From Methanobacteriota archaeon (GTDB lineage Archaea; Halobacteriota; Methanosarcinia; Methanosarcinales; Methanosarcinaceae): DNA of 44,620 nt. This document shows, piece by piece, positions 16,248 to 31,849 of the stretch. Within the stretch, counting starts at the first letter, position 1. Each line of letters starts with the position of its first letter. The notes under the pieces were generated by a model that saw only the letters and a list, made by a program, of their open reading frames with translations, did not search any database and had not been told where the DNA came from. Where the stretch lies: positions 65,532-110,151 of the forward strand of contig JASGVX010000003.1 in assembly GCA_030054735.1 (NCBI GenBank), written 5' to 3'. A program made the position numbers and the translations under genes.

Positions 16248-19196
16248 TCATGGTGATAAGTCTTCAGATTTAGAAACTTTTTGAACAATATCAGCCACAA
16301 TTTCCCTTTCTTCGACCTGCAATTTATAATATTTCTGAATATCCTTTGTCTCTACAATTTCAACTGCATTTAGCAGAGGTTTAAGAAGCTCTGGAAACTT
16401 TCCCCCTTTAATTTTCATAATCTCATCAACAGTTATTTTGAGAACTTCGAATTCTCCAGAATCAACCACCGTTTTGAAAAAGCCCATCATTGAAGCTTCA
16501 AATGTTTCTTTTTTGAGTTGAAGTTCGAGATCAAAAATTGTTCTTATGAGTTTTCTGCCATTTCCAAGATTTCCAATTTTCAATTCTTCAAAAACTATTT
16601 TCCAAACAGCTTCAATAAATTTTTTAATTAAGCGAGGCGTTTGATTAGATATTTTGCTCTTAATTAATTCGATTTCAGTGTTTGCCTTTGCAACTTGATT
16701 AAGGGAAAGATAAACTCCAATCAAGCTAAGTATAATTTCAATTTTAAACGATTCATTACTTGCTATGTTTTTAACTTTGACAAATATCTCAATGGCTTCT
16801 TCGTACCGTTCTAATAAAATTAAAACATATCCTTTTACTGATAATGCATACTCATTATCAGGATTTAGCTCAAGAGCTTTATTGGAAACTTCAAGAGCTT
16901 TATTGGAAACTTCAAGAGCTTCTTCGTACCGTTCTAATAAAGCTAAAGCAGATCCTTTTCTTGATAATGCATACTCATTATCAGGATTTAGCTCAAGAGC
17001 TTTATTGGAAACTTCAAGAGCTTCTTCGTACCGTCCTAATGAACCTAAAGCAGACCCTTTTCTTGATAGTGCATACTCATTATCAGGGTTTAGAACTAGA
17101 ACCTTATTGAAAACTTCAATAGCTTCTTCGTACCGTCCTAATAAATATAAAATATCTCCTTTTCTTGATAGTGCATACTCATCATCAGGATTTAGGATCA
17201 AAATCTTGTTGAAAACTTCAAGAGCTTCTTCGTGCCGTCCTAATGAAACTAAAGCAGACCCTTTTCTTGATAGTGCATCCTCATCATCAGGATTTAGGAT
17301 CAAAATCTTGTTGAAAACTTCAAGAGCTTCTTCGTACCGTCCTAATAAATATAAAATATTTCCTTTTCTTGATAATGCATACTCTTCATCAGGATTTAGT
17401 ACCAAAACCTTGTTGAAAACTTCAAGAGCTTCTTCGTATCTTTTCAATAAAGCTAAAGCATACCCTTTTCTTGATAGTGCATACTCATTATCAGGATTTA
17501 GGACCAAAATTTTGTTGAAAACTTCAAGAGCTTCTTCGTATCTTTTCAATAAAACTAAAACATGTCCTTTTTTTAATAGTGCGTACTCATCTTTAGGATT
17601 AAGTTTCAAAACTTTATCAAGTACATTAAGCAATTCCCTGCATACTGTGGTATAATCAGAATCCAAAAGATAAGAATAATCTTTTGTATCGTATTTTAGA
17701 CCTTTTTTAAACGTTTCAAGAGCTACTTTATCAGATTTATAATGGAGAGGAATTTCAAAGATCAGATATTTTGCTTTCAGATCTATATCCTTACTTTTAT
17801 TTGCGATTTCCTTTAATTTTTGAATATCATGATCAGCTTCTTCCCATTCCTCAAACTCTATAATTTTTGGAGTTAGTTTTAAAAGAGCTTCTGTTTTATG
17901 TTTACCAGATAAAGCTTCAACACGATAACGGAGATCTATTAGAATATTTTTATTTCCGGACTCAAGAAGATGGAGCTTTCTCTCGAAATGTTCTTTTAGT
18001 TCTTCAGAAGAGTACCATAGCTTCAAGAAGTTTACAAGTATGGAGATTCTCTTCCTTCCCAGGGGCTGTCTTAACTCTCTCCAAAGACGGAAAAGTCTCT
18101 CACGCACTTCATAGTAAGTTTCTCTTCCCGCTGGCCTTGAAAGAACATAGCCGTCCTTTTCCAATCTTCGAAGTTGTGTTGTGACAACTGAAGCATCAAT
18201 TCTCGACTTTTCAGCGATTTGCTTTGGAGTCATAGGAGATTCAGAAGAGATGACCGTATCAAATATTAGTCTCTTTTGACCTGTTAGAAGCTGAAATATC
18301 TCTTGATAATAAGGGGTATGTTCGTCTAATATTTTGAAAAATACTTTTTCTATATCCTCAAAATTGTCTCTGCTAATTAGTTCATAGAAAAATATTACAA
18401 GCCTTGGAGTGCCGCCGGTAAGATGTGTCATGCCCTCCATTCTGGTTTCATATTTCTCAAAATTCTCCAGAAACTCTTTGTTACACTCTATTTCAGCGAT
18501 TTTTTTGAGTAGAATCTTTATTTCACTTGATGAAAGTTCTCTTAGATGCTGGATTCGGAAAAAGTTGTAAAAAGGTTCTTCATGACTAGTTATTTCAGCA
18601 AATATTATAGGAGAAGATGCTACAACTGAAAAAAAATCATGTTTCTGGAATATGGATCTTAATTTTTGAATTTCCTTCCGCTCTAACTGCTGGAACACTT
18701 CATGTAAATTCTCAACAAAAATTAGGTATATTTTGTTTTCTTTTTTGACAATTTCCTTAAGCTTGCCAAGAGATGCATCAAGAATTTCATCTTCATTGTT
18801 AAGAGACAAGATATCTGAAATGTTTTCATTTGTCTCTTGTAGAATTCTTAAGAAGAAATCAGAAGCTCGATAAACTGAATATTCTTCTTCTGCAAACTTA
18901 ACCGGAATATAAAGGGAACTTAGTTCTTGTTTTATTTTATAGTACAACATAATTAAAAAATGTGATTTCCCTATTCCTCGAGAACCTACAAGCAAATAAA
19001 ACCTTGGAGTTTTATTTTTTCCAGCTGTTTCAAGCTCTTTAAATGTATTTTCAAAAAGACCATCTCTTCCAACAAAGATGCTCTTCAATACTTCGTAATC
19101 TATGTTCTCTGGAGAATATCTGTATAAAGTGACTTTAGGGCTAGTAGAAGAATTACAATTGATTCGGTCAGATATACTATCCTTAGATCGTTCCAT
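16248..19196 (-). CDS. AAA/STAND-like ATPase with winged helix and TPR array
   Basis: About 982 aa from the ATG at 19196. I chose this start because GGAGG lies 7 bases upstream; the frame is open further up, giving 1010 aa. Order: FVGRDGLFE entry motif near 41; Walker A GSRGIGKS at 71-78; hydrophobic Walker B-like IYLIFVEN near 156-163, with Glu but without the usual Asp; GGTPRL sensor-like motif near 261; winged helix at about 308-365 (TPKQIAEKSRIDASVVTTQL); helical linker; eight TPR units at about 535-805; helical C-terminus. This layout resembles signal-transducing STAND ATPases, where repeats sense a ligand. No effector nuclease or protease domain is visible. It overlaps the upstream ATPase gene by 14 bases, so the two are likely translationally coupled. 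Function unknown. Confidence 0.85.
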   Translation of the reverse strand: MERSKDSISDRINCNSSTSPKVTLYRYSPENIDYEVLKSIFVGRDGLFENTFKELETAGKNKTPRFYLLVGSRGIGKSHFLIMLYYKIKQELSSLYIPVKFAEEEYSVYRASDFFLRILQETNENISDILSLNNEDEILDASLGKLKEIVKKENKIYLIFVENLHEVFQQLERKEIQKLRSIFQKHDFFSVVASSPIIFAEITSHEEPFYNFFRIQHLRELSSSEIKILLKKIAEIECNKEFLENFEKYETRMEGMTHLTGGTPRLVIFFYELISRDNFEDIEKVFFKILDEHTPYYQEIFQLLTGQKRLIFDTVISSESPMTPKQIAEKSRIDASVVTTQLRRLEKDGYVLSRPAGRETYYEVRERLFRLWRELRQPLGRKRISILVNFLKLWYSSEELKEHFERKLHLLESGNKNILIDLRYRVEALSGKHKTEALLKLTPKIIEFEEWEEADHDIQKLKEIANKSKDIDLKAKYLIFEIPLHYKSDKVALETFKKGLKYDTKDYSYLLDSDYTTVCRELLNVLDKVLKLNPKDEYALLKKGHVLVLLKRYEEALEVFNKILVLNPDNEYALSRKGYALALLKRYEEALEVFNKVLVLNPDEEYALSRKGNILYLLGRYEEALEVFNKILILNPDDEDALSRKGSALVSLGRHEEALEVFNKILILNPDDEYALSRKGDILYLLGRYEEAIEVFNKVLVLNPDNEYALSRKGSALGSLGRYEEALEVSNKALELNPDNEYALSRKGSALALLERYEEALEVSNKALEVSNKALELNPDNEYALSVKGYVLILLERYEEAIEIFVKVKNIASNESFKIEIILSLIGVYLSLNQVAKANTEIELIKSKISNQTPRLIKKFIEAVWKIVFEELKIGNLGNGRKLIRTIFDLELQLKKETFEASMMGFFKTVVDSGEFEVLKITVDEIMKIKGGKFPELLKPLLNAVEIVETKDIQKYYKLQVEEREIVADIVQKVSKSEDLSP
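16790..17615 (-). repeat. Eight-unit 102-bp repeat array encoding TPRs
   Basis: Each unit encodes a 34-aa TPR such as EYALSRKGSALALLERYEEA followed by LEVFNKxLxLNPDN. The TCGTACC-type anchor recurs at 16801, 16924, 17026, 17128, 17230, 17332, 17434 and 17536. The spacing is exactly 102, except for one gap of 123. The extra 21 bases are a direct duplication (AAGAGCTTTATTGGAAACTTC at 16872 and 16893) that repeats EVSNKAL in the protein. Near-identity at the DNA level points to recent expansion or gene conversion. Confidence 0.92.
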
Positions 19197-21125: not shown

Positions 21126-23993
21126 TTATCGATTTTTTCTCTCCGTTAAAGCAATACCTATCAGAAGTATTACCATAAATGCGACAAGGATCTTGATGGC
21201 TGTGGAAACATTTGACCAGTCTTTATATTCAGCCGCTGGCACTGGCCGTGACTCAGGCACTTCAACCTGCATGTTATCCGACTCAAGCGGAAGTACCGTG
21301 GTTTCAGTATTATTTTCGTTATATTCAATAGCAATAGCTTTCTTGCCAGTTATAATTGCAAACGTAGAGAAACCCGGGGTTCTGGATTCAAAATACATGT
21401 ACTTGCCGTCTTCTCCAATTTTACGCGTAGGGAGAGCTTTCCATTTTCCATTAGAATACCTGTACATGAAAACTGATGGCCCCTCAGTCTCGTTTTCAGA
21501 AATTTCAGAGCTTTTGACCCTGAACCCTATACTGGCATTGGCAATGTTCTCTGGAGTTGCAACCCCTTCATTTCCCACCCAGATATTCAGGTACTTATAG
21601 ACCTTTCCGGAAGGTTCTTTTGGGGTCAGGAAGGACCTGTTTTTAAGCTCTTCAACAATGGATGTGGTCTTCCCGAAGTTCCTTTTTGAATCGAACTTCA
21701 CATACATAATAGCAGTGGCATTTTTAGTGAACTCGAACTTTATCCGGTCTCCTGTTGTGATGAAATCCTGGGCAATTTCTTTAACTTCAACATTACTTGC
21801 AGGCTCAGGAGAACCCCCACCTCCAGCAGATGATGCCCCAAAAGAGCCACCTGACCCTCTACGGCTTGATTCCTCCTCACCGACTTTAATATAGTCAGTC
21901 CATGTAACAGTACTATGTTTGTAGTCATTGCTGACATTAAGGGTTACGGAATAACTTCCAGATTTGGAATACTCATGGGTCGGGTTCTGAGAGGTAGATG
22001 TGCTGTTGTCTCCAAAGTCCCAGAACCATCTGGTAACGTTTCCTGTAGAAGTATCTTTAAACTGTACGGTCAGAGGTGCACTCCCTTTATTTGTAGAAGC
22101 GGTAAAAGAAGCATGAAGCTCGTCTCCTACCATAATATAGTTAGACCTGGTTATATTACCCCACGCAGCAGTACCCTTACCTGCCCTCAAAGTAACCGTA
22201 TAGAGCCCGTTTGTTGTAAACTTATGAACAGGGTTATTTTCAGTTGAATCTATGATCCCGTCCGAGTTAAAGTCCCATTCCCAGGCAGTTGGATCTCCGG
22301 CAGAAAGATCTTGAAACTGAACGAAAAGCGGAGCGGGTCCTGAAGTCACGTTTGATGTAAAATCAGGAATCGGTGCATTAAGCGAGAGCACATTTACAGA
22401 AGAAGGGACCACGGTGGCGTTTGACCCAAAGGCATTTGTTACTGTCAATCCCACAGTATAATTCCCGGCGTCGAAATATGTATGAGATGGGCTCTGAGAT
22501 GTTGACTCATTTCCGTCCCCAAAGTCCCATAGCCAGGAAGTTGCATTTCCCGACGAAGCATCGTTAAACTGAACAGTAAGTGGAGCATTCCCCTCCCGTG
22601 GGTATACGGTGAAAGCAGCTAGAGGTAAATCCCCGACTATGATAGGTATTGTTTTACTGCCAGCGGCAGTGCCGTTGATTGCTTTAAGGGTAATAGAATA
22701 AGTTCCCTGAGATTCATATACATAAGTAGGGTTTTGTTCAGTTGAATCAATTATCCCGTCCGAGTTAAAGTCCCATTCCCAGGAAATCGGAGCTCCGGTA
22801 GAAAGGTCCTGAAATTGGACGGAAAGCGGGGCTGGACCTGAAACGGGATTGAATGAAAAATTGGCTACAGGCGCAGTGATTGAGTATGCACGTATATAAG
22901 AAGCAGCCTCAAATGTATATGACCCGTATGAATTTGTTACAGTTAATTTTACGGTATATGTCCCTTCTCCAGAATATGTATGGGAAGGATTTTTGTCATT
23001 TGATTTGTTGCCGTCTCCGAAGTCCCATTCCCATTTTGTTGGGTCTCCGGTTGAAGTGTCAGTAAAACTTACTGTTAGAGGAGCTATTCCTGATAGCGGG
23101 GAAGCGATAAAGCTAGCTGTTGGCCCATTTCCAACAGTAATGTAATTTGATTTTGTAATTTCATCGCTGGCAGCGCTGTTGGTTACTGTAAGGGTTACGG
23201 AATATGTTCCGGCAGTCGAATAGGTGAAAACCGGGTTCTTTTCAGTTGAATCTATGGTCCCGTCTGAGTTAAAGTCCCATGCCCACTTTGTAGGGTTTCC
23301 GGTTGAGCTGTCAGTAAAACTTACTGTTAGTGGAGCTGTTCCTGATAGAGGGGACGCGGAAAAGTCAGCAGTTGGCCCTTTTTCAACAGTAATGTAATTT
23401 GATTTTGTAATTTTATCGCTGACAGTGCTGTTGGTTACTGTAAGGGTTACGGAATATGTTCCGGCAGTCGAATAGGTGTAAACCGGGTTCTTTTCAGTTG
23501 AATCTATGGTCCCGTCCGAGTTAAAGTCCCATTCCCATTTTGTAGGGTTTCCGGTTGAGCTGTCAGTAAACCTTACTGTTAACGGAGCTATTCCTGATAG
23601 TGGGGACGCGGAAAAATCAGCAGTTGGCCCTTTTTCAACAGTAATGTAATTTGATTTTGTAATTTCATCACTGACAGTGCTGTTAGTTGCTGTAAGGGTT
23701 GCGGAATATATTCCGGGAGTCGAATAGGTGTAAATCGGGTTCTTTTCAGTTGAATCTATGATCCCGTCCGAGTTAAAGTCCCATTCCCAATTTGTCGGGC
23801 TTCCGTTTGAGCTGTCAGTAAATTTTACTGTTAGCGGAGCTATTCCTGATAGCGGAGAAGCTGAAAATTCCGCAAAAAATGATTCATTAGCGACATATGC
23901 GGCAGAGCCTAAATCCGAGTCAGCAACTATCACCAATGGTGAATATATTAGAAATAGAAGCATAAATGCCGTTATTCGTTTCAATTCACGCAC
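21126..23993 (-). CDS. Secreted PKD-repeat surface protein with PGF-pre-PGF-like domain
   Basis: A 955-aa cell-surface protein. It has a signal peptide (MRELKRITAFMLLFLIYSPL, cleavage near 25-35) and eight PKD domains (about 38-715; typical WDFGDGN and APLTVxFxDxS). A Ser/Gly-rich linker (RRGSGGSFGASSAGGGGSPE) follows, then a domain like the archaeal PGF-pre-PGF region (FKFEFTKNAT-type start, ending SRTPGFSTFAIITG) and a C-terminal membrane helix (IKILVAFMVILLIGIAL) before ERKNR. Several PKD units carry DFNSDGxIDS, a DxNxDG calcium-loop-like insert. The start is GTG after a GGAAGAGG site. PKD proteins act in adhesion and the cell envelope; the partner here is unknown. It stands alone among mobile repeats. 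Confidence 0.9.
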   Translation of the reverse strand: MRELKRITAFMLLFLIYSPLVIVADSDLGSAAYVANESFFAEFSASPLSGIAPLTVKFTDSSNGSPTNWEWDFNSDGIIDSTEKNPIYTYSTPGIYSATLTATNSTVSDEITKSNYITVEKGPTADFSASPLSGIAPLTVRFTDSSTGNPTKWEWDFNSDGTIDSTEKNPVYTYSTAGTYSVTLTVTNSTVSDKITKSNYITVEKGPTADFSASPLSGTAPLTVSFTDSSTGNPTKWAWDFNSDGTIDSTEKNPVFTYSTAGTYSVTLTVTNSAASDEITKSNYITVGNGPTASFIASPLSGIAPLTVSFTDTSTGDPTKWEWDFGDGNKSNDKNPSHTYSGEGTYTVKLTVTNSYGSYTFEAASYIRAYSITAPVANFSFNPVSGPAPLSVQFQDLSTGAPISWEWDFNSDGIIDSTEQNPTYVYESQGTYSITLKAINGTAAGSKTIPIIVGDLPLAAFTVYPREGNAPLTVQFNDASSGNATSWLWDFGDGNESTSQSPSHTYFDAGNYTVGLTVTNAFGSNATVVPSSVNVLSLNAPIPDFTSNVTSGPAPLFVQFQDLSAGDPTAWEWDFNSDGIIDSTENNPVHKFTTNGLYTVTLRAGKGTAAWGNITRSNYIMVGDELHASFTASTNKGSAPLTVQFKDTSTGNVTRWFWDFGDNSTSTSQNPTHEYSKSGSYSVTLNVSNDYKHSTVTWTDYIKVGEEESSRRGSGGSFGASSAGGGGSPEPASNVEVKEIAQDFITTGDRIKFEFTKNATAIMYVKFDSKRNFGKTTSIVEELKNRSFLTPKEPSGKVYKYLNIWVGNEGVATPENIANASIGFRVKSSEISENETEGPSVFMYRYSNGKWKALPTRKIGEDGKYMYFESRTPGFSTFAIITGKKAIAIEYNENNTETTVLPLESDNMQVEVPESRPVPAAEYKDWSNVSTAIKILVAFMVILLIGIALTERKNR
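23070..23905 (-). repeat. Near-identical DNA repeats encoding the first three PKD domains
   Basis: Three consecutive units of about 250-260 bases are almost identical at DNA level (for example TCAGTTGAATCTATGGTCCC recurs at 23240 and 23495, with a variant near 23750). Later PKD units have diverged. This points to recent tandem duplication at the N-terminal side. Confidence 0.8.
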
Positions 23994-24361: not shown

Positions 24362-24560
24362 TATTGACATCCAGAATATTAAACTTTTTGATTTAAGGGT
24401 ATCCAGTAAGCTTATTTTCTCTAGCATATCAAGATTTGTTTTAATAAAAATTATTTTATATAAAAAATGTAGTCATTTAGCGTAATTCTTCAAAAGATTA
24501 GCACGCAAAGTACCAGCACATTCAGAACTGGAAAAAAGAAAAACTGGAATTTATCCTGGC

Positions 24561-24724
24561 AGGTTGTCTCAAAACTAAAAGCAATTCTACAATTGGATAA
24601 TGAGATACGTTAACTTTAAAAAGTCCAGCTTAAAATAGAGAAATTTAGATATAAATTTACCTTATAGTTTATAGTGGAAAAAATTGACACTATTCTAAAA
24701 TTAACTTTATTTTTGAGACAGCCT
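24561..24724 (+). mobile_element. MITE family B, copy 2 (164 bp)
   Basis: Ends AGGTTGTCTCAAAACT and TTTTTGAGACAGCCT; the interior begins CTACAATTGGATAATGAGAT. It matches copies 3 and 4 in the same orientation and copy 1 inverted. Confidence 0.82.
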
Positions 24725-24777
24725 GTAAAGTATTGTACAGGTTCAGAAAAAACTACCTGAAAATATATGATTCGTGA

Positions 24778-24949
24778 CTAGTGTCGCGTCAGCAGCAAAA
24801 TGTCGTATAAATTCAATTGTAACTATTCAGAATCATTAAATATTTGAAGATTGACGCAACACTAGTGTCGCGTCAGCATTAAGATATTGCATATAATCTA
24901 TTACAACGATTCAAAATCGTATAATCCTTGATGACTGACACGACACTAG
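24778..24949. mobile_element. Two abutting MITE family C copies sharing a CTAG
   Basis: Copy one (24778-24865) runs from CTAGTGTCGCGTCAGC to TTGACGCAACACTAG. Copy two (24862-24949) runs from the same CTAGTGTCGCGTCAGC to TGACACGACACTAG. They share the CTAG at 24862-24865. This fits insertion at a CTAG target with its duplication. Related ends occur at 30551 and 38572. Confidence 0.8.
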
Positions 24950-24965
24950 ATCGCAATCTGAAAGG

Positions 24966-25256
24966 TTAGAACCTTACAGCATTAAGGACAGTCAGCTTTT
25001 TCTTCCAGTAGTCAAGCCCTTTTTTTGCGGCGTACCACTCATAGAACCTGTCATCATCGATATATTCTCCAGTTTCGAATTTTTCTATGAGCTCCGTAGA
25101 AATCAGGTCGTACTTGTCTTCAAATTCATCGCAGATCATGGAATAGCGGTGTACCTTGTATTTTGCAAGATGCTTCTCATGTTCTAAAGCCGAGCGAACA
25201 ACCTCGCTTGCTTCCTGTATCGAGTAATTGATGTCAATCTCCAATGTAAGGTCCAT
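24966..25256 (-). CDS. Small hypothetical protein (96 aa)
   Basis: Not recognised. The product is acidic at its centre (CDEFEDKYDLISTELIEKFE) and has a basic, aromatic end (WYAAKKGLDYWKKKLTVLNAVRF). Predicted mainly helical, with no membrane segment or cysteine pair. It starts at an ATG preceded by GGGATAAAC, with an A/T-rich TATA-like tract further up. It lies directly against two MITE C copies. Size and setting would fit a small regulator or an antitoxin-like protein, but no partner gene is adjacent and no family match is claimed. Confidence 0.6.
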   Translation of the reverse strand: MDLTLEIDINYSIQEASEVVRSALEHEKHLAKYKVHRYSMICDEFEDKYDLISTELIEKFETGEYIDDDRFYEWYAAKKGLDYWKKKLTVLNAVRF

Positions 25257-25704
25257 GTTTATCCCATATAAAATTATAGCTTGATACTAAAGTTTGATCC
25301 TATATCTTTTTTTCTATTTATTAATGAGTTATATTTATTTGTATACAGAAAAGTAAGAAGCATTAGACCAAGGTAAAAAATTTAAGTATTTTAATTACAG
25401 CAACACATTTGAAAAATTATGAGAAAATTTCTTATCCTGGGACCCGCAATCCTCAGAATAGTTTTCCTTTTATTTTTATTATTTTTTCTATTTTGTCTTT
25501 CTTATCTATTTATCGTTAGTTTTCCCCTTTAATATAATATTAATTAGATTCATAGTTCCCAAACATTAATATACTGAGTGGTGGATTACTATATGATTTC
25601 AACTCTTTTATATTAATGATCATGTGAAAAAAACATATATAGTATTACTTACATTAAGCTTATGTATTCTCATTTGAATGAATAATAAATTACTCGGTGA
25701 TACA
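25257..25704. other. Divergent upstream region of the 96-aa gene and nikR
   Basis: 448 bases, very AT-rich. TATA-like ACATATATAGTA at about 25630-25641 lies some 65 bases ahead of nikR. I found no inverted repeat matching the E. coli NikR operator. No ORF or RNA structure was seen in the rest. Confidence 0.5.
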
Positions 25705-26127
25705 ATGGGAACAGAACTTATGAGGATAGGAGTCTCCCTACCCAATACACTTCTTGATAAATTTGATGAGATTATTGAAAAAAGAGGTTACTCCTCCCGT
25801 TCAGAAGGAATAAGGGACTCCATCAGGAGTTATATCTCTTATTATGAGTGGATGGGCGACATTAAAGGCCATCGTGTTGGGACAGTTGCCGTTATTTACG
25901 ACCACACGAAGCGCGGGCTTTCAAATGCACTTGCAGATATACAGCACAACTACTCTCACCTGATTAAATCTTCCGTGCACATCCACCTCGACCATGACAA
26001 TTGTTTTGAGGTAATTGTTCTCGATGGAGATGGTGAGGAAATTAAAGAGCTTGCCGAATCCATTATGGCTCTCAAAGGGGTAAAATTCTCAAAACTTACT
26101 ACTGTAGCCTCAAACGAAAAGATTTGA
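25705..26127 (+). CDS. nikR: Nickel-responsive regulator NikR
   Basis: Ribbon-helix-helix repressor with a nickel-binding ACT-like domain. Methanogens need nickel for F430, hydrogenases and CO dehydrogenase. From the ATG at 25705 the protein is 140 aa. RHH domain at 1-50 ([36 protein letters not shown]). Nickel ligands are all present: His81 (ADIQHNY), His92 and His94 (VHIH), Cys100 (HDNC), equivalent to E. coli His76, His87, His89 and Cys95. An ATG at 25678 would add nine residues; I prefer 25705 because GGTGA lies just upstream and the protein then has family length. No nickel transporter gene is adjacent, so it acts on distant targets. Confidence 0.93.
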
Positions 26128-26227
26128 TTTTTATCTTTCCGGATACGAAGCTCCAATAGTAAGTTTACTCAGGAATGCTGAGGGGCGTTAAACTTATTTA
26201 ATGGGTCAAAGTCCCTCAACTCCTCAC

Positions 26228-26590
26228 TTAATATTTCTGAAGGTATCTTTCAATTTGTTTCAGAAGCAAGTTTCTGAATTCCATAAGGTCATAGATCTGG
26301 AAACGACGCTCTCTCCTTGAACCCACGAGCCATGCTCCCTTTAAGAGCTTCAGGTGATAAGAAAGTGCAGAATGCTTCAGGTCTGTAGCTTCAATAAGGA
26401 CACAGACGCAAAGGCTCTGGACTTCAATAGCTTGCAGTATCTTCGCGGATTGGGCCTGTAAGGACTTTGAACAGACTGACTATTCTTCAAAATTTTCATT
26501 CAGGGCTGTATGAACAGCTTCGAGCACCTCTTCTGAAAGTGCATAAGCGTCCTGATCTATTATTTTCCACTCAGACCTTTTTTTCCACTC
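26228..26590 (-). pseudogene. Broken ArsR-family regulator
   Basis: Minus-strand translation gives pieces of an ArsR winged-helix protein in different frames. The first is EEVLEAVHTALNENFEE, ending at a TAG. Then VSLFKVLTGPIR in a shifted frame. Then, back in the first frame, AKILQAIEVQSLCVCVLIEA, HSALSYHLKLLKGAW and RRFQIYDL, to a TAA at 26228-26230. SLCVCVLIE matches the metal-binding helix motif (ELCVCDL) of ArsR/SmtB proteins. Two compensating indels are needed to rebuild the gene, and the 5' end runs into an 18-bp repeat array, so no start codon is left. It follows the glycosyltransferase gene on the same strand. Confidence 0.75.
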
Positions 26591-26640
26591 AGACCTTTTT
26601 TTTCCACTCAGACCTTTTTTTCCACTCAGACCTTTTTTCA
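26563..26640. repeat. 17-20 bp tandem repeat, four copies
   Basis: TTTTCCACTCAGACCTTT recurs four times with variable T-run length (units near 26563, 26581, 26600 and 26619). It fills the space between the AglD-like stop (26646) and the arsR pseudogene body. The unequal T-runs are typical of replication slippage. Confidence 0.88.
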
Positions 26641-26645
26641 GGCTA

Positions 26646-28397
26646 TCACATTCCTTTTAGAGTTTCGGTATTAGTTGAGAGAACCTCTCTCCATCTGAAC
26701 CCCAGTTCCGATAAGGCTAGCCCTCCTCCGAGCAATGTGATTGAATTCTTTATTATGTGGTCCAGCACAGCGACAGTAAACCCAAGTTCAGGCCTGATGC
26801 CTCCAAGTCCGAATACTGCAGTAAGAGCAAGTTCATATGTCCCTATAGCTCCAGGAGTAATGGGAAAAGTTTTTGCGATATTTCCTATAGCGACAGCCAG
26901 AAATACCAGGGATAAGGTGAATGTTGAAGACATATTCACACCTGATGCCGGAAATGCTTTCAGGACCAAAAAGCAGGTAAAAATATCCATTCCCCATATA
27001 AGAAGGGAGGATGAAACTACCTTCAGAAAAGACCCGGGCCGGACTGCAACAATGCTCACCTGGTGGACAAAAGTGGAAGCGAATTCTTTTATTTTTTTCA
27101 GAGGCTCTCCCGAAGAATTAATAGAAGCCTTTTCTTTAACGCTCTTTTCACTGCGGCTTTCCCTGAAAGATAACGTAAACAGGGCTGCAAAGAAAAGGAG
27201 AACTGCAAACCCTGAGAACTGAATGAGGGACTCCATCCAGGAAGCAAGCTCGAAGCTGGCAGCTACGCCTGAAGATGCGAGCGCGGCAATGAAAGTAATT
27301 GCAATTATGTCAAAAACTCTTTCTACGGTCAGAGAGGAAAGGCTCGTTGTAAATGCAAGGTCTTTACTTTTTTTCAGGATGTACATCCTGCTAAAATCTC
27401 CTATTCTTGCGGGGAGGATAACATTTGCAGATTGGCTGATGAAAATGCTCCCGGTAAGAAATCCAAGCCCAAAATGCTTTCCAAGCCCGTTAAGGATCTG
27501 CTGGAAACGTAGTCCTCTGAGCGGCCAGGAGGCGCAGTAAACAAGAGTTGCAAGAGCCATAGTGCCTGGAGAGACCTGTTTGATATTTTCTATAACTTCT
27601 GCTGCTCCAAGAAAGGTTGTAGCAAGTGCGAGAATCAGAACTGCAAGAAAAGCTGTCAGGAATATTTTTCCTTTCCCTGAAAATAAGCCTGAAAAAAAGA
27701 GTTCCCACCAGAGGCGGAAGACCTCTGAGCCCATTCCAAGAATATCCTTTGTGAAGTTGACCTTACTTGATCCCCCATGCCTCCAGTAAACAGGGAACTC
27801 AAGAACCCTGTATCCCTCGTGCTGGGCTCTTACAAGCAATTCGGTATCCCAGAACCAGTGCTGGTTCTCAATTCCATCGAGCAATTCTAAGAGAGGCTCT
27901 CTCCTGAAAGCCTTGAAGCCGCACTGGTGGTCATAGAGTTTTGAATGCAAAAAAAGCCGAACAAGGGAGTTATATCTTCTGCTTGCAAATTCGCGCTTAA
28001 AAGGCCTTTTTGCATCGCTTTCAGACATTATTCTCGAGCCGGTGGCAAAGTCATAAGCATCCGTACTTACAGCTCTGATCAGCTTTTCCATGTAGCTCAT
28101 ATCCGTTGCAAGATCTACATCAATATAGCAGAGCACCTCTCCTGAGGCTGCCTTAAAAGCCCTGTTCAGAGCCCTGCCCCTTCCCTGGCGCTCATCGGAA
28201 TGCAGGTGTTTGACATAGGTGTACTGTTCCGAAAGCCTTGAGGCTATCCGGTCTGTACCGTCCGTGCTTCCGTCCTCTGCTATTATGATCTCAAAAGAAT
28301 TAGTTATCTTTGAAAGAGTATCTGCTGTTATCGAAACCGCATTTTCTATTCTGGCTGCTTCGTTGTAAGCTGGCAGAACTACCGAGACGCTGGTTAT
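26646..28397 (-). CDS. AglD-like glycosyltransferase 2 fused to UPF0104 membrane domain; start codon unclear
   Basis: N-terminal GT-A glycosyltransferase of the dolichol-phosphate hexose synthase type (VVLPAYNEAARIENAV, IIIAEDGSTDGTDR, ERQGRGRALN, YIDVDLATD). It is fused to a multi-helix UPF0104/lysylphosphatidylglycerol synthase-like membrane domain (about residues 260-570). Haloferax AglD, which charges dolichol phosphate with mannose for S-layer glycosylation, has the same layout. The frame is open from an in-frame stop just upstream, yet no ATG, GTG or TTG precedes the GT motifs. The first candidate is a GTG at 28136, which would remove the nucleotide-sugar fold. GAGG sits 8 bases before an ATA codon at 28397, giving 583 aa, and I place the start there tentatively. 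Confidence 0.75.
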   Translation of the reverse strand: MTSVSVVLPAYNEAARIENAVSITADTLSKITNSFEIIIAEDGSTDGTDRIASRLSEQYTYVKHLHSDERQGRGRALNRAFKAASGEVLCYIDVDLATDMSYMEKLIRAVSTDAYDFATGSRIMSESDAKRPFKREFASRRYNSLVRLFLHSKLYDHQCGFKAFRREPLLELLDGIENQHWFWDTELLVRAQHEGYRVLEFPVYWRHGGSSKVNFTKDILGMGSEVFRLWWELFFSGLFSGKGKIFLTAFLAVLILALATTFLGAAEVIENIKQVSPGTMALATLVYCASWPLRGLRFQQILNGLGKHFGLGFLTGSIFISQSANVILPARIGDFSRMYILKKSKDLAFTTSLSSLTVERVFDIIAITFIAALASSGVAASFELASWMESLIQFSGFAVLLFFAALFTLSFRESRSEKSVKEKASINSSGEPLKKIKEFASTFVHQVSIVAVRPGSFLKVVSSSLLIWGMDIFTCFLVLKAFPASGVNMSSTFTLSLVFLAVAIGNIAKTFPITPGAIGTYELALTAVFGLGGIRPELGFTVAVLDHIIKNSITLLGGGLALSELGFRWREVLSTNTETLKGM

Positions 28398-28892
28398 AAG
28401 AACAACCTCTTGATGTTTATTATAATATAAATTGAACTTTTATGCCATCTGCAATTTCATATAAAACTCTCTTTAATTCGAATAATCTCATATTTATAAG
28501 ACTTATTTGTGAAATCTGTTTTGATGCGTATTTATTAAAAGTATTTATGAAAAGTATTTATGAAACAATGTTTAGATACTAAAATAAATGATATATTTTA
28601 CTAAAATATGATTTATTTTACTAAAATATGATTTTTTGCCCGAGTCAGGTCTTTCTCTGAAAGTGGATAATTATAATGTCCCTTTTTACGTGACTTTCTT
28701 AAATTTATATATTGTGACTGGACCTTCATAAGCCAGTTCAAAATACGTTTTGTTCTCGAATTTATCTTGTTTTACATGATATATTTGCCGCTCAAGCTGT
28801 CCTAATATTACATATACAGTAGTTCACTAATTATTTAATTTTCATTAAACGATGTTTTCCGAAACCTATATATATTATGAAAACGCCGCCGT
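28398..28892. other. AT-rich intergenic region with short direct repeats
   Basis: 495 bases. It includes the 15-bp direct repeat AGTATTTATGAAA near 28540-28565 and the 23-bp repeat TTTTACTAAAATATGATT near 28596-28635. A TATA-like CTATATATATTA lies near 28867. No coding sequence was seen. Confidence 0.5.
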
Positions 28893-29141
28893 ATGTCTCT
28901 TTTTCCCTCTAAGTCTGGCTATGGTCCAAAAATCGAATTAAGGTCAAAAGAATGTACTGTTGCTGTGTTACAACCTCTCAAAGGTCATGTAACTATCAAG
29001 ATCAATGGCTCCTTTACAAATGAAAACATCTTTTCTATGGTTGTGAATATGGCAGTCAACAACTATTCTGTCCACTTAGTCTCTAAACAGTATCAAACTG
29101 TTGCTTGCGAAACATCCCTACTCTGCCATCTTAAAAACTAA
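28893..29141 (+). pseudogene. Truncated ISH3-like transposase, N-terminal fragment
   Basis: The 82-aa ORF (STVAVLQPLKGHVTIKING-like core: CTVAVLQPLKGHVTIKINGS, then SMVVNMAVNNYSVHLVSKQY and CETSLLCHLK) resembles the N-terminal part of Methanosarcina ISH3-type transposases, recalled from family knowledge. Those are roughly 350-400 aa with a DDE core, which is missing here. MITE B copy 3 starts within about 10 bases of its stop, so the rest was lost or displaced at that junction. Confidence 0.6.
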
Positions 29142-29147
29142 ATATAG

Positions 29148-29307
29148 TAGATTGTTTCAAAAATCAAACCATTTCTTCAATTGGATAATGAAATACCTTA
29201 ACTTTAAAAATAAATCCACTTAAAATAGAGAAAATTAGATATAAATTAACCTTATAGTGGAAATAATTGGCAGTTTTGTAGAATTAACTTTATTTTTGAG
29301 ACAGCCT
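29148..29307 (+). mobile_element. MITE family B, copy 3 (about 160 bp)
   Basis: The interior (TTCAATTGGATAATGAAAT, ATAAATTAACCTTATAGTGG) and right end (TTTTTGAGACAGCCT) match copy 2. The left end (ATTGTTTCAAAAATC) has drifted. It abuts the transposase fragment. Confidence 0.75.
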
Positions 29308-29398
29308 TTTTTGGACAAAATCAAAAATGATTAGGAATAGTCGTTCGGAACTACAGCAAATCAGAACTACTGGGAAAAACAGAAAGCTTCTGTAAGAT

Positions 29399-29450
29399 GG
29401 GTTTTTCCTGTTTTCGGGCACTAAAAAGTAAGCAAAAACAGGAAAAGCCC
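29399..29450 (-). terminator. Long hairpin downstream of thi4
   Basis: Arms GGGTTTTTCCTGTTTT (29399-29414) and AAAACAGGAAAAGCCC (29435-29450) pair over 16 bases with one mismatch, around a 20-base loop. It lies 26 bases past the thi4 stop on the minus strand. A 3'-end or transcript-stability role is inferred from position. Confidence 0.5.
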
Positions 29451-29475
29451 CGGTTATGGGCAGAATAAAAGCAAA

Positions 29476-30258
29476 TCAGAGCCCATTGAGCCTGTCAAGA
29501 GCAAGTTTTGCAGCTTTTTCTCCAGAAAGGAGCATCCCGCCAAAAACAGGGCCCATTCTTGGTGCACGGGTTGCGGCATTTGCAGCCATGCCTGCGACAA
29601 TCAGTCCTGGATAGATTTCCTGGGTTGCATCCACAGCCATGCGCTCACCGACCTCAGACCACATTGGCTTTTCCCCAAGCATGCCAAGTTCCCCGATCTT
29701 TGCATTTGGGATTTTACGGAGAATTGTGTTGCAGACAACTGCATCGTGCCCTGTCCCGTCGATTACGAGTTTTGTGCGGATCATGAGGGGGTCTACATGC
29801 AGGCGCTGTGCTGTAACAGGTCCCCAGTTGATGACTATGCCGGTAACCCTGTCATTCTCGCGGATCATAACGTCTTCAAAGCTCACAAGGTTAAAGACCT
29901 CAGCTCCCGCCGAAGTAGCCCCTGCAATCAGCTTCCCTACAGATTCCACGGAGTTTGCCACGTAATATCCAGACTCATATTCCTTATACCTGATCCCAAA
30001 GTCGTCCAGGACGCGGCATGCCTCTTCCTGCACAACTATACGCGGGAACATCATGCCTCCGGCCCACATGCCGCCCCCAGGTGACAGCTTCTGCTCGTAA
30101 ATGGCAACCTTTGCCCCTGCTTCAGCCAGGTACTTTGCAGCCACAAGGTTTGCAGGTCCCCCTCCTACAAGTGCTACATCGATGTCCGTGTAGTCAAGGA
30201 AAGTTTTAGAATACTCATCAAAAATTGCCCGTGTGATAATGACTTCATCGAGTTCCAT
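29476..30258 (-). CDS. thi4: Thiamine thiazole synthase, archaeal His-type Thi4
   Basis: Makes the thiazole precursor of thiamine from NAD and glycine. The 260-aa flavoprotein-like fold has the dinucleotide motif VGGGPANLVAAKYLAE (31-46), SPGGGMWAGGMMF and the closing VAGMAANAATRAPRMGPVFG. In yeast a cysteine supplies the sulfur in a suicide reaction. Here the equivalent loop reads QRLHVDPLMI with His154. Archaeal His-type enzymes use free sulfide with Fe(II) and turn over many times (family knowledge). Start ATG follows GAGAG. No thiamine riboswitch was seen upstream and no other thiamine gene is adjacent. Confidence 0.94.
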   Translation of the reverse strand: MELDEVIITRAIFDEYSKTFLDYTDIDVALVGGGPANLVAAKYLAEAGAKVAIYEQKLSPGGGMWAGGMMFPRIVVQEEACRVLDDFGIRYKEYESGYYVANSVESVGKLIAGATSAGAEVFNLVSFEDVMIRENDRVTGIVINWGPVTAQRLHVDPLMIRTKLVIDGTGHDAVVCNTILRKIPNAKIGELGMLGEKPMWSEVGERMAVDATQEIYPGLIVAGMAANAATRAPRMGPVFGGMLLSGEKAAKLALDRLNGL

Positions 30259-31180
30259 TTTAATCTCTCATAAAACTTATAAGATCGAAATTCCAGAGAA
30301 AACAACCCGGTTTTTTCAGAACTAAATCATGAATTGTTAACCCTGATCCATAAGCATTGAAATTTACATTTTGATACAGGGCATTGCTATTAAAGTTGTT
30401 GGAACCTGAAGGATAGATGGGGGAAGAAAAGTAATAGTCCTGAAGCGGCTTTAAGGACGGCAATATCAGAGCTTCAAATAAATTTTACCATCTACGAAAT
30501 TTCAATTTTGTGAGTACTTTTAGGGCGTGCGAAGATTTCGCTTTGCGCGGCTAGTGTTGCGCCATCCGTAAAATGTCTTAATAATTATATTGTATCGTAT
30601 TCATAAAGAATTCTAGGGATTCTTATGAATAGGTTAATTGGCAATTTACAACAGAAGATGCAAGGATTAAATTGGCACGACTTTATCCAACAATTCAGGA
30701 GTGACGAGACAGTAGAATAATAATGAAATTATGCCATGACATTGAATTGATTGGAGATTTAGAATTGCCTGTTTCCAGATTTGGGGTCAAAATCAATCTG
30801 GTTTGCTGATATATGCTTTAATCTCTATTGTCAGAGATTTCCAATATGATATTCAAAAAACAGAGTATCAACCTGAGAACTTCGAGAAGACATGAGCTTC
30901 TGGTATCTGATCAAAGCCTAAGCTTCTCTTGAGTAAGCCTTTTAAGTCCATAACTCTTGTTATGCGTCAACATGTACTTGAAATAAACATGTACCCATTA
31001 TTTGCTCCTGAGCCATTATGATAATATTCTTGTGTTTGGACAACGTCTTAGATTTGAATAATATTCCCTGATCCACATTGAGATCTTGAGATATTCAGAG
31101 CAGCCTCTTATAATCTGCCTTATTATTCAGGGATTTTATTCACAAATATTATACTGGATAAAATAGAGAGTAATTTTAAT
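30259..31180. other. Long non-coding region with degenerate MITE C and possible transposase debris
   Basis: 922 bases without a supportable gene. A family C left end lies at 30551 (below). Minus-strand reading between about 30770 and 30960 gives broken segments such as LLKRSLGFDQIPEAHVFSKF and, in another frame, VDTLFFEYHIGNL. These could be decayed transposase, but I cannot name a family. The region also holds the promoter of the rhomboid gene. Confidence 0.45.
30551..30715. mobile_element. Degenerate MITE family C
   Basis: The left end CTAGTGTTGCGCCATC resembles CTAGTGTCGCGTCAGC. A possible right end, GTGACGAGACAGTAG, lies near 30701-30715. The interior differs from the 24778 pair, and the length (165 bp) is about twice as great. 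The right boundary is uncertain. Confidence 0.4.
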
Positions 31181-31849
31181 ATGTTTAATCGCGACACACC
31201 ATATGGGTCCCGAGGCGGAACGATGGATAGAATCAAAACTTTTATCTCTGCAAGTCCCTCGATGACAATTATTTTCCTGTGTATAATTTCGTTTCTTCTG
31301 GAAATCGTTCCAGGCATAGGGTCTCTCTATATAAACGCTTTTCAGTTTGACCCTGGTTCTCTTATAACGAGACCCTGGACGCTTATAACATACATTTTCC
31401 TGCATTCTGGATTAATGCACCTTTTTTTTAATATGCTTGTCCTGTACTTTTTCGGGACTGCACTTGAGCGAAGGATTGGGAATAATCAGCTCCTTGTAAT
31501 CTTCTTTACTGCAGGAATTCTATCCGCAATAGGGTACACTTTCTTGAGCAGGCCCATTTTTGGTATTTACCCCGCTCCTATGATTGGTGCAAGCGGAGCT
31601 ATTTACGGGGTCTTTGCAGCTCTTGCCGTACTTGAACCGAATCTCAGGGTATATGTTTATTTTATCCCTATGCGCTTAAAGCATGCTCTATTGCTCTTTG
31701 CCATTTTTGATTTTCTTATGATCAATGCATCAGACATGATAGCCCATACCGCCCACCTGAGCGGGCTCTTTGTCGGAATTTATATGGGTTTTCGTATGAA
31801 GAAAATAGAAGAAAAATACATGAGAACGAGGTACTTCGGAAGGTGGTGA
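31181..31849 (+). CDS. Rhomboid-family intramembrane serine protease
   Basis: Cleaves membrane proteins within the bilayer. The 222-aa protein has about six membrane helices. Key motifs are HLFFNMLVLYFFG (His80 and Asn84 of the conserved HxxxN), GASGAIYG with nucleophile Ser138, and AHLSGLFVG with catalytic His192. The Ser-His dyad is intact. An ATG at 31223 (after GAGGCGG) would shorten the cytoplasmic start by 14 residues and is a real alternative. Its stop overlaps the next gene by seven bases. Substrates cannot be inferred. Confidence 0.9.
   Translation: MFNRDTPYGSRGGTMDRIKTFISASPSMTIIFLCIISFLLEIVPGIGSLYINAFQFDPGSLITRPWTLITYIFLHSGLMHLFFNMLVLYFFGTALERRIGNNQLLVIFFTAGILSAIGYTFLSRPIFGIYPAPMIGASGAIYGVFAALAVLEPNLRVYVYFIPMRLKHALLLFAIFDFLMINASDMIAHTAHLSGLFVGIYMGFRMKKIEEKYMRTRYFGRW

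Follow-up and report, generated by a model that had tools for sequence, protein, structure and literature searches.

The current work shows that a gene for an AglD-like glycosyltransferase in Methanosarcina very likely begins at AUA or AUU instead of the usual AUG, that most of the relatives read across the order have the same or a similar non-canonical codon at this place, and that at least two other genes in the genus appear to share this arrangement. The analysis started from a window of 44,620 nucleotides (GCA_030054735.1, contig JASGVX010000003.1) in a 2.88 Mb draft genome of 149 contigs. A sequence-only reading of this window had noted that the frame encoding VVLPAYNE and DGSTDGT contains no ATG, GTG or TTG before these motifs, that the first GTG would delete the sugar-nucleotide fold, and that a GAGG site precedes an ATA where a start is expected. 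This observation proved correct. Its interpretation, that either ATA is used as a start or an ATG was recently mutated and the gene is poorly translated, is only partly supported: the first alternative is supported, a recent mutation is refuted because the state is shared by the genus and by other families of the order, and poor translation remains possible.

The frame at 28397..26646 of the minus strand comprises 583 codons plus TGA (26648-26646) and encodes ITSVSVVLPAYNE and, further on, DGSTDGT. The nearest in-frame stop upstream is a TAA at 28442-28440, and the 14 codons between it and the ATA at 28397-28395 contain no ATG, GTG or TTG. The first canonical in-frame codon is the GTG at 28136-28134, codon 88, where an open reading frame listing with standard start codons begins the gene; starting there removes 87 residues, including VVLPAYNE and DGSTDGT. 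Eight bases lie between GAGG (28409-28406) and ATA, and the Shine-Dalgarno (SD) site AGAGGT (28410-28405) has a duplex energy of about -7.0 kcal/mol with an assumed anti-SD sequence.

The product consists of a glycosyltransferase family 2 (GT2, GT-A) domain (PF00535, residues 5-171, 28385-27885) followed by a flippase-like membrane domain (PF03706, LPG_synthase_TM, residues 250-557, 27650-26727), both above the curated cut-off. Of eleven positions named for Haloferax volcanii AglD (PMC2877612), ten carry the same residue at a constant offset of 17, judged by position rather than by alignment of the AglD sequence itself: D110, D112, D133, R139, R152, D173, G177, the catalytic D201, and W198 and E203, which flank it. 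The eleventh, D195, is Asn here. The DXD motif (DVD, residues 93-95, 28121-28113) lies at the place of AglD D110-D112. The term AglD-like is therefore fair, although an activity equivalent to that of AglD, which adds the final hexose of the S-layer N-glycan, can only be inferred from sequence. The best-matching solved structure, the dolichol monophosphate mannose synthase 5mlz, aligns from residue 3, so little can be missing at the N-terminus.

Comparison with close relatives, which had been proposed beforehand as a check, gave a consistent result. Of 30 Methanosarcina genomes searched, 29 rows hold the codon, and all 29 have ATA (15) or ATT (14) behind a G-rich SD; the remaining genome (G016, 73% complete) gave only a weak match. 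These rows include genome G002, whose copy (L048) carries in-frame stops and matches in several pieces, and G025, read from a second contig. Among 18 loci from named records, 17 labelled Methanosarcina and one Methanosarcinaceae archaeon, 17 have ATA or ATT and one (L014) lacks the N-terminus; these loci (L002-L019) and the window's own (L001) were left out of the counts because most repeat genomes already included.

At strict thresholds, a match was found in 32 of 111 genomes of the family, 102 of 185 of the order, and 67 of 170 of the class at 85% completeness or more. A total of 102 rows were read, 101 of the order and one of the class, including 6 Methanosarcina paralogs and one genome with two copies; the codon is ATA in 40, ATT in 32, ACG in 4, ATG in 19, GTG in 4, and unclear in 3, so that 76 are non-canonical and 23 canonical. 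By numbered family (f) and genus (g), Methanosarcina (f1g1) has 15 ATA and 14 ATT; its paralogs 4 ATT, 1 ATG and 1 unclear; f1g2 2 ATA; f1g14 1 GTG; f2 3 ATG and 1 GTG; f3 14 ATT; f4 10 ATG and 4 ACG; f5 23 ATA, 5 ATG, 2 GTG and 1 unclear, including the genome with two copies; and f7, of the class, 1 unclear. In f3 the start is one codon further upstream, and in five canonical rows it lies 1-3 codons away. Eleven rows were assigned by hand, and the table leaves out L047 (no N-terminus), L049, the distant L079, L093 and L094, and two f5 genomes with close matches (G151 and G160). A quick tree of 100 rows, in which 41 of 97 inner branches have support under 80, requires at least 16 state changes (unclear counted as a state), at least 8 of them between canonical and non-canonical. 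Exchange of ATA/ATT with ATG, GTG or ACG at or next to one place is what an initiation codon does and what an internal Ile codon would not do. The domain arrangement also varies: GT2 and flippase-like domains are fused in the main f1 orthologs and in f3, but lie in separate, often neighbouring frames in f4, and in f5 the close match covers the GT2 part only.

Of the 76 non-canonical rows, 74 show an in-frame stop upstream, and 63 have no ATG, GTG or TTG after it. The other 13 do not exclude a canonical start: 12 have an in-frame canonical codon 3-37 codons upstream, such as the ATG 8 codons up in G015 and G017, and one (L071) is cut by its contig end. The first canonical codon downstream is a median 61 codons away, and 20 or more in 55 of 76. 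In ten of the eleven genomes of one group, clade A (L028 left out), pN/pS is 1.17 in the 14 codons upstream of ATA, 0.03 in codons 2-12, 0.07 in codons 2-88, and 0.16 in codons 89-583; the upstream comparison was made without gaps, so small shifts inflate it. Purifying selection, and with it the protein, thus begins at or next to this codon.

Strong SD sites go with non-AUG starts. With the assumed anti-SD, the 75 measurable non-canonical rows (L071 left out) have a median duplex energy of -7.1 kcal/mol, none weaker than -5.9, with a corrected spacing of 2-6 nt (3-4 nt in 63). The 23 canonical rows have a median of -4.3 and range from -10.1 to 2.6, so some of them also have a strong SD (Mann-Whitney p 4.6e-10, not corrected for relatedness). 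Nineteen window genes picked from the open reading frame list have a median of -3.7. Within f4, the four ACG rows (-8.8) contrast with the ten ATG rows (median -4.3).

Other genes were sought by reciprocal comparison of 0.84 Mb of the window's genome (G000, window included) with 1.06 Mb of a second genome, G028, which gave 184 non-overlapping ortholog pairs. Of these, 148 have identity of at least 60% and length of at least 80, and 136 of the 148 share a canonical codon in a lenient zone around the start. The 12 without are the target, an ATPase, two pairs with ACG or CTG in one species opposite ATG, and eight whose alignment begins inside the protein or whose frame is doubtful. Besides the target, two genes have SD plus ATA in both genomes, that is 2 of 147; the second of them counts among the 136 because of a poorly placed canonical codon. 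The sample is small and detection incomplete, so about 1 per cent of genes is a rough figure.

The first is a MinD/ParA-type ATPase (PF01656; locus L188, 4148-4915), with ATA in 28 of 28 rows of the genus. In 24 of 24 rows read from two other genera, ATG is found at or one codon before that place, so this state probably arose on the Methanosarcina lineage. An initial guess that this gene lies in the carbon monoxide dehydrogenase operon was not borne out, as the nearest long frame upstream looks like an asparagine synthase. The second is a phosphoribosyltransferase (PF00156; locus L182, 6099-6779 and the ATA three codons before it), with ATA in 24 and ATC in 1 of 25 rows, the partial L273 being left out. 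Here the window's genome has an in-frame ATG further up, and L271 has a TTG directly before ATA. Both genes lie behind GGAGG/GGGGGA-type sites, and one row of each (L221, L258) has an in-frame TGA directly before ATA. These two genes weaken an explanation by a peculiarity of glycosyltransferases.

Between the two genomes, single-species cases are an ACG opposite ATG, a CTG opposite ATG, and an ATT opposite ATG. The ACG is in an argF-like gene of the window's genome (locus L181, from about 2155), with a strong SD in both genomes; a match to this gene was found in 30 of 30 genomes. FeoB (locus L298, 10015-11982) may be a fourth case, although its frame has a GTG inside or next to the SD, with ATT at the aligned place. 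Several other hits of SD plus ATN lie inside proteins or beside a usable canonical codon and were taken as chance.

The best explanation, with a probability of roughly 0.8, is that the gene is intact and that AUA is its natural start codon. In this view, a strong SD site places AUA in the ribosomal P site, and initiator Met-tRNA (CAU anticodon) pairs with its first two bases, so that the protein most likely begins with Met although the codon reads Ile. Selection would tolerate or keep AUA/AUU because it caps the output of a membrane enzyme needed in small amounts, with the strong SD compensating. Comparison establishes the position of the start, its non-AUG state across the genus and in most rows read from the order, the strong SD, and the same arrangement in at least two other Methanosarcina genes, whereas Met as the first residue, reduced output and a selective reason are inferred. 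Archaeal start selection uses aIF1, aIF1A and aIF2, and aIF1 disfavours non-AUG complexes (PMC6237735). The state is not indispensable, since f4 mostly (10 of 14), f2 wholly (4 of 4) and f5 partly (7 of 31) use ATG or GTG, as do G107 and one paralog.

The main rival, possible though less likely, is that the start is real but has no regulatory purpose, and that a ribosome tolerant of near-cognate codons after a strong SD lets start codons drift. The canonical rows of f4 and f5, the repeated changes on the tree, and the single-species cases above are in its favor. However, no ATG, GTG or TTG occurs at the codon in 29 of 29 Methanosarcina rows, although ATA to ATG is one transition and an ATA/ATT exchange did happen there, and published data show purifying selection for AUG in general (PMC5622118).

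The remaining alternatives are improbable. Translation could begin upstream and enter the frame by readthrough of the TAA or by a frameshift: ATG AAA TTG CAG ATG GCA TAA precedes the frame in the window, similar short ATG...TAA frames occur in L003 and L022, and in a second group, clade B, an out-of-frame ATG lies 23 nt upstream and ATGAAAAT recurs. In L003 and L022, however, that ATG is not in the frame of the gene, the other eight clade-A rows lack it, ATGAAAAT is absent from clade A, the upstream pN/pS is 1.17, and the SD lies downstream of both. A shorter protein starting downstream is suggested by 13 of 76 non-canonical rows with a canonical codon 5 codons downstream, such as GTG for the first V of VVLPAYN, but is disfavoured by the 55 rows in which the first lies 20 or more codons away and by the stronger constraint on codons 2-88 than on the rest. 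RNA editing, such as A-to-I in AUA or C-to-U in ACG, is very unlikely; repair of ACG occurs in chloroplasts (PMC9845219), but no single editing reaction is known to turn ATA, ATT and ACG all into AUG. A recent mutation, assembly error or decaying gene in this one draft genome is refuted by the relatives, including single-contig genomes such as G007 and G028, and by the intact, constrained frame.

Further signals were sought around the start. An RNA hairpin hiding the SD was rejected, because the window fold is modest (z -1.53, 11 of 200 shuffles as good) and RNAalifold on 16 sequences found no kept two-sided change in any of 11 predicted pairs. Rfam gave no match at E 0.1 or better in 24500-31500. 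The first codons of clade A looked synonymously frozen, but windows of equal or greater codon invariance occur elsewhere in the gene, and a second signal was dropped. In a search for a special tRNA reading AUA as initiator, ARAGORN, run on stretches of G028 and G000 rather than whole genomes, listed 30 tRNAs, of which the only ones with CAU were two Met tRNAs in L182.

Natural non-AUG starts have been described before. In Escherichia coli, infC (IF3) and pcnB start at AUU, which for infC is described as lowering its own initiation (PMC9410913); the present gene likewise has a conserved non-canonical codon with an SD, but with AUA as well as AUU, in an archaeon, conserved over a genus and in most rows read from an order. 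Its product is a glycosyltransferase and not an initiation factor that represses its own start, the other genes likewise have no known link to initiation factors, and archaea use aIF1, not IF3. AUC, AUU and AUA have been named as rare start codons in bacteria (PMC9094748, citing others), without a conserved set of genes. Start codon switches to AUU in prokaryotes were counted as 1 of 61,358 ancestral AUG and 1 of 5,080 ancestral GUG starts (PMC5622118); those are isolated switches in close genomes, whereas this is a long-standing state in several genes. A Ribo-seq annotation of Methanosarcina mazei, of the same genus, reports misannotated starts and names ATG, GTG, TTG and CTG as start codons, and AUU occurs 0 times in it (PMC11456600). 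Chloroplast genes keep non-AUG starts, mainly GUG and UUG, over long evolution, with lower output in reporter tests under one promoter (PMC9845219). Limited literature searches on start codons and on AglD, with PMC8211752 and PMC6412873 also consulted, found no paper recognised as describing AUA or AUU starts in archaea; this does not prove absence, as most subscription-journal papers and preprints fell outside their reach.

Archaeal start codons are taken to be AUG, GUG and UUG (PMC7531240). Gene callers and N-terminal peptide searches generally follow this rule, and gene-finding programs of this kind would cut the real start off such proteins. It is about as likely as not that Methanosarcina, and probably much of its order, has a standing class of genes that start at AUA/AUU/AUC after a strong, precisely spaced SD. 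These would be a per cent or so of genes, missed or N-terminally shortened by gene callers, and open to joint control by start-codon proofreading through aIF1. A genus-wide set of AUA/AUU starts would mean truncated proteins in databases, a source of natural weak start codons in genetically tractable methanogens, and a direct way to test how archaeal aIF1 proofreads start codons in living cells.

The surroundings of the gene show some additional features. An 18/37-bp tandem repeat (TTTTCCACTCAGACCTTT) lies directly behind its stop codon, at 26563-26638. Next to the gene, at about 26170-26560 of the minus strand, an ArsR-like regulator frame appears interrupted in this genome, while G028 has a longer matching frame. 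Long tandem repeats of 102 and 252 bp are located inside reading frames at 16891-17615 and 23020-23874, the second in a protein with 8 matched PKD-domain stretches.
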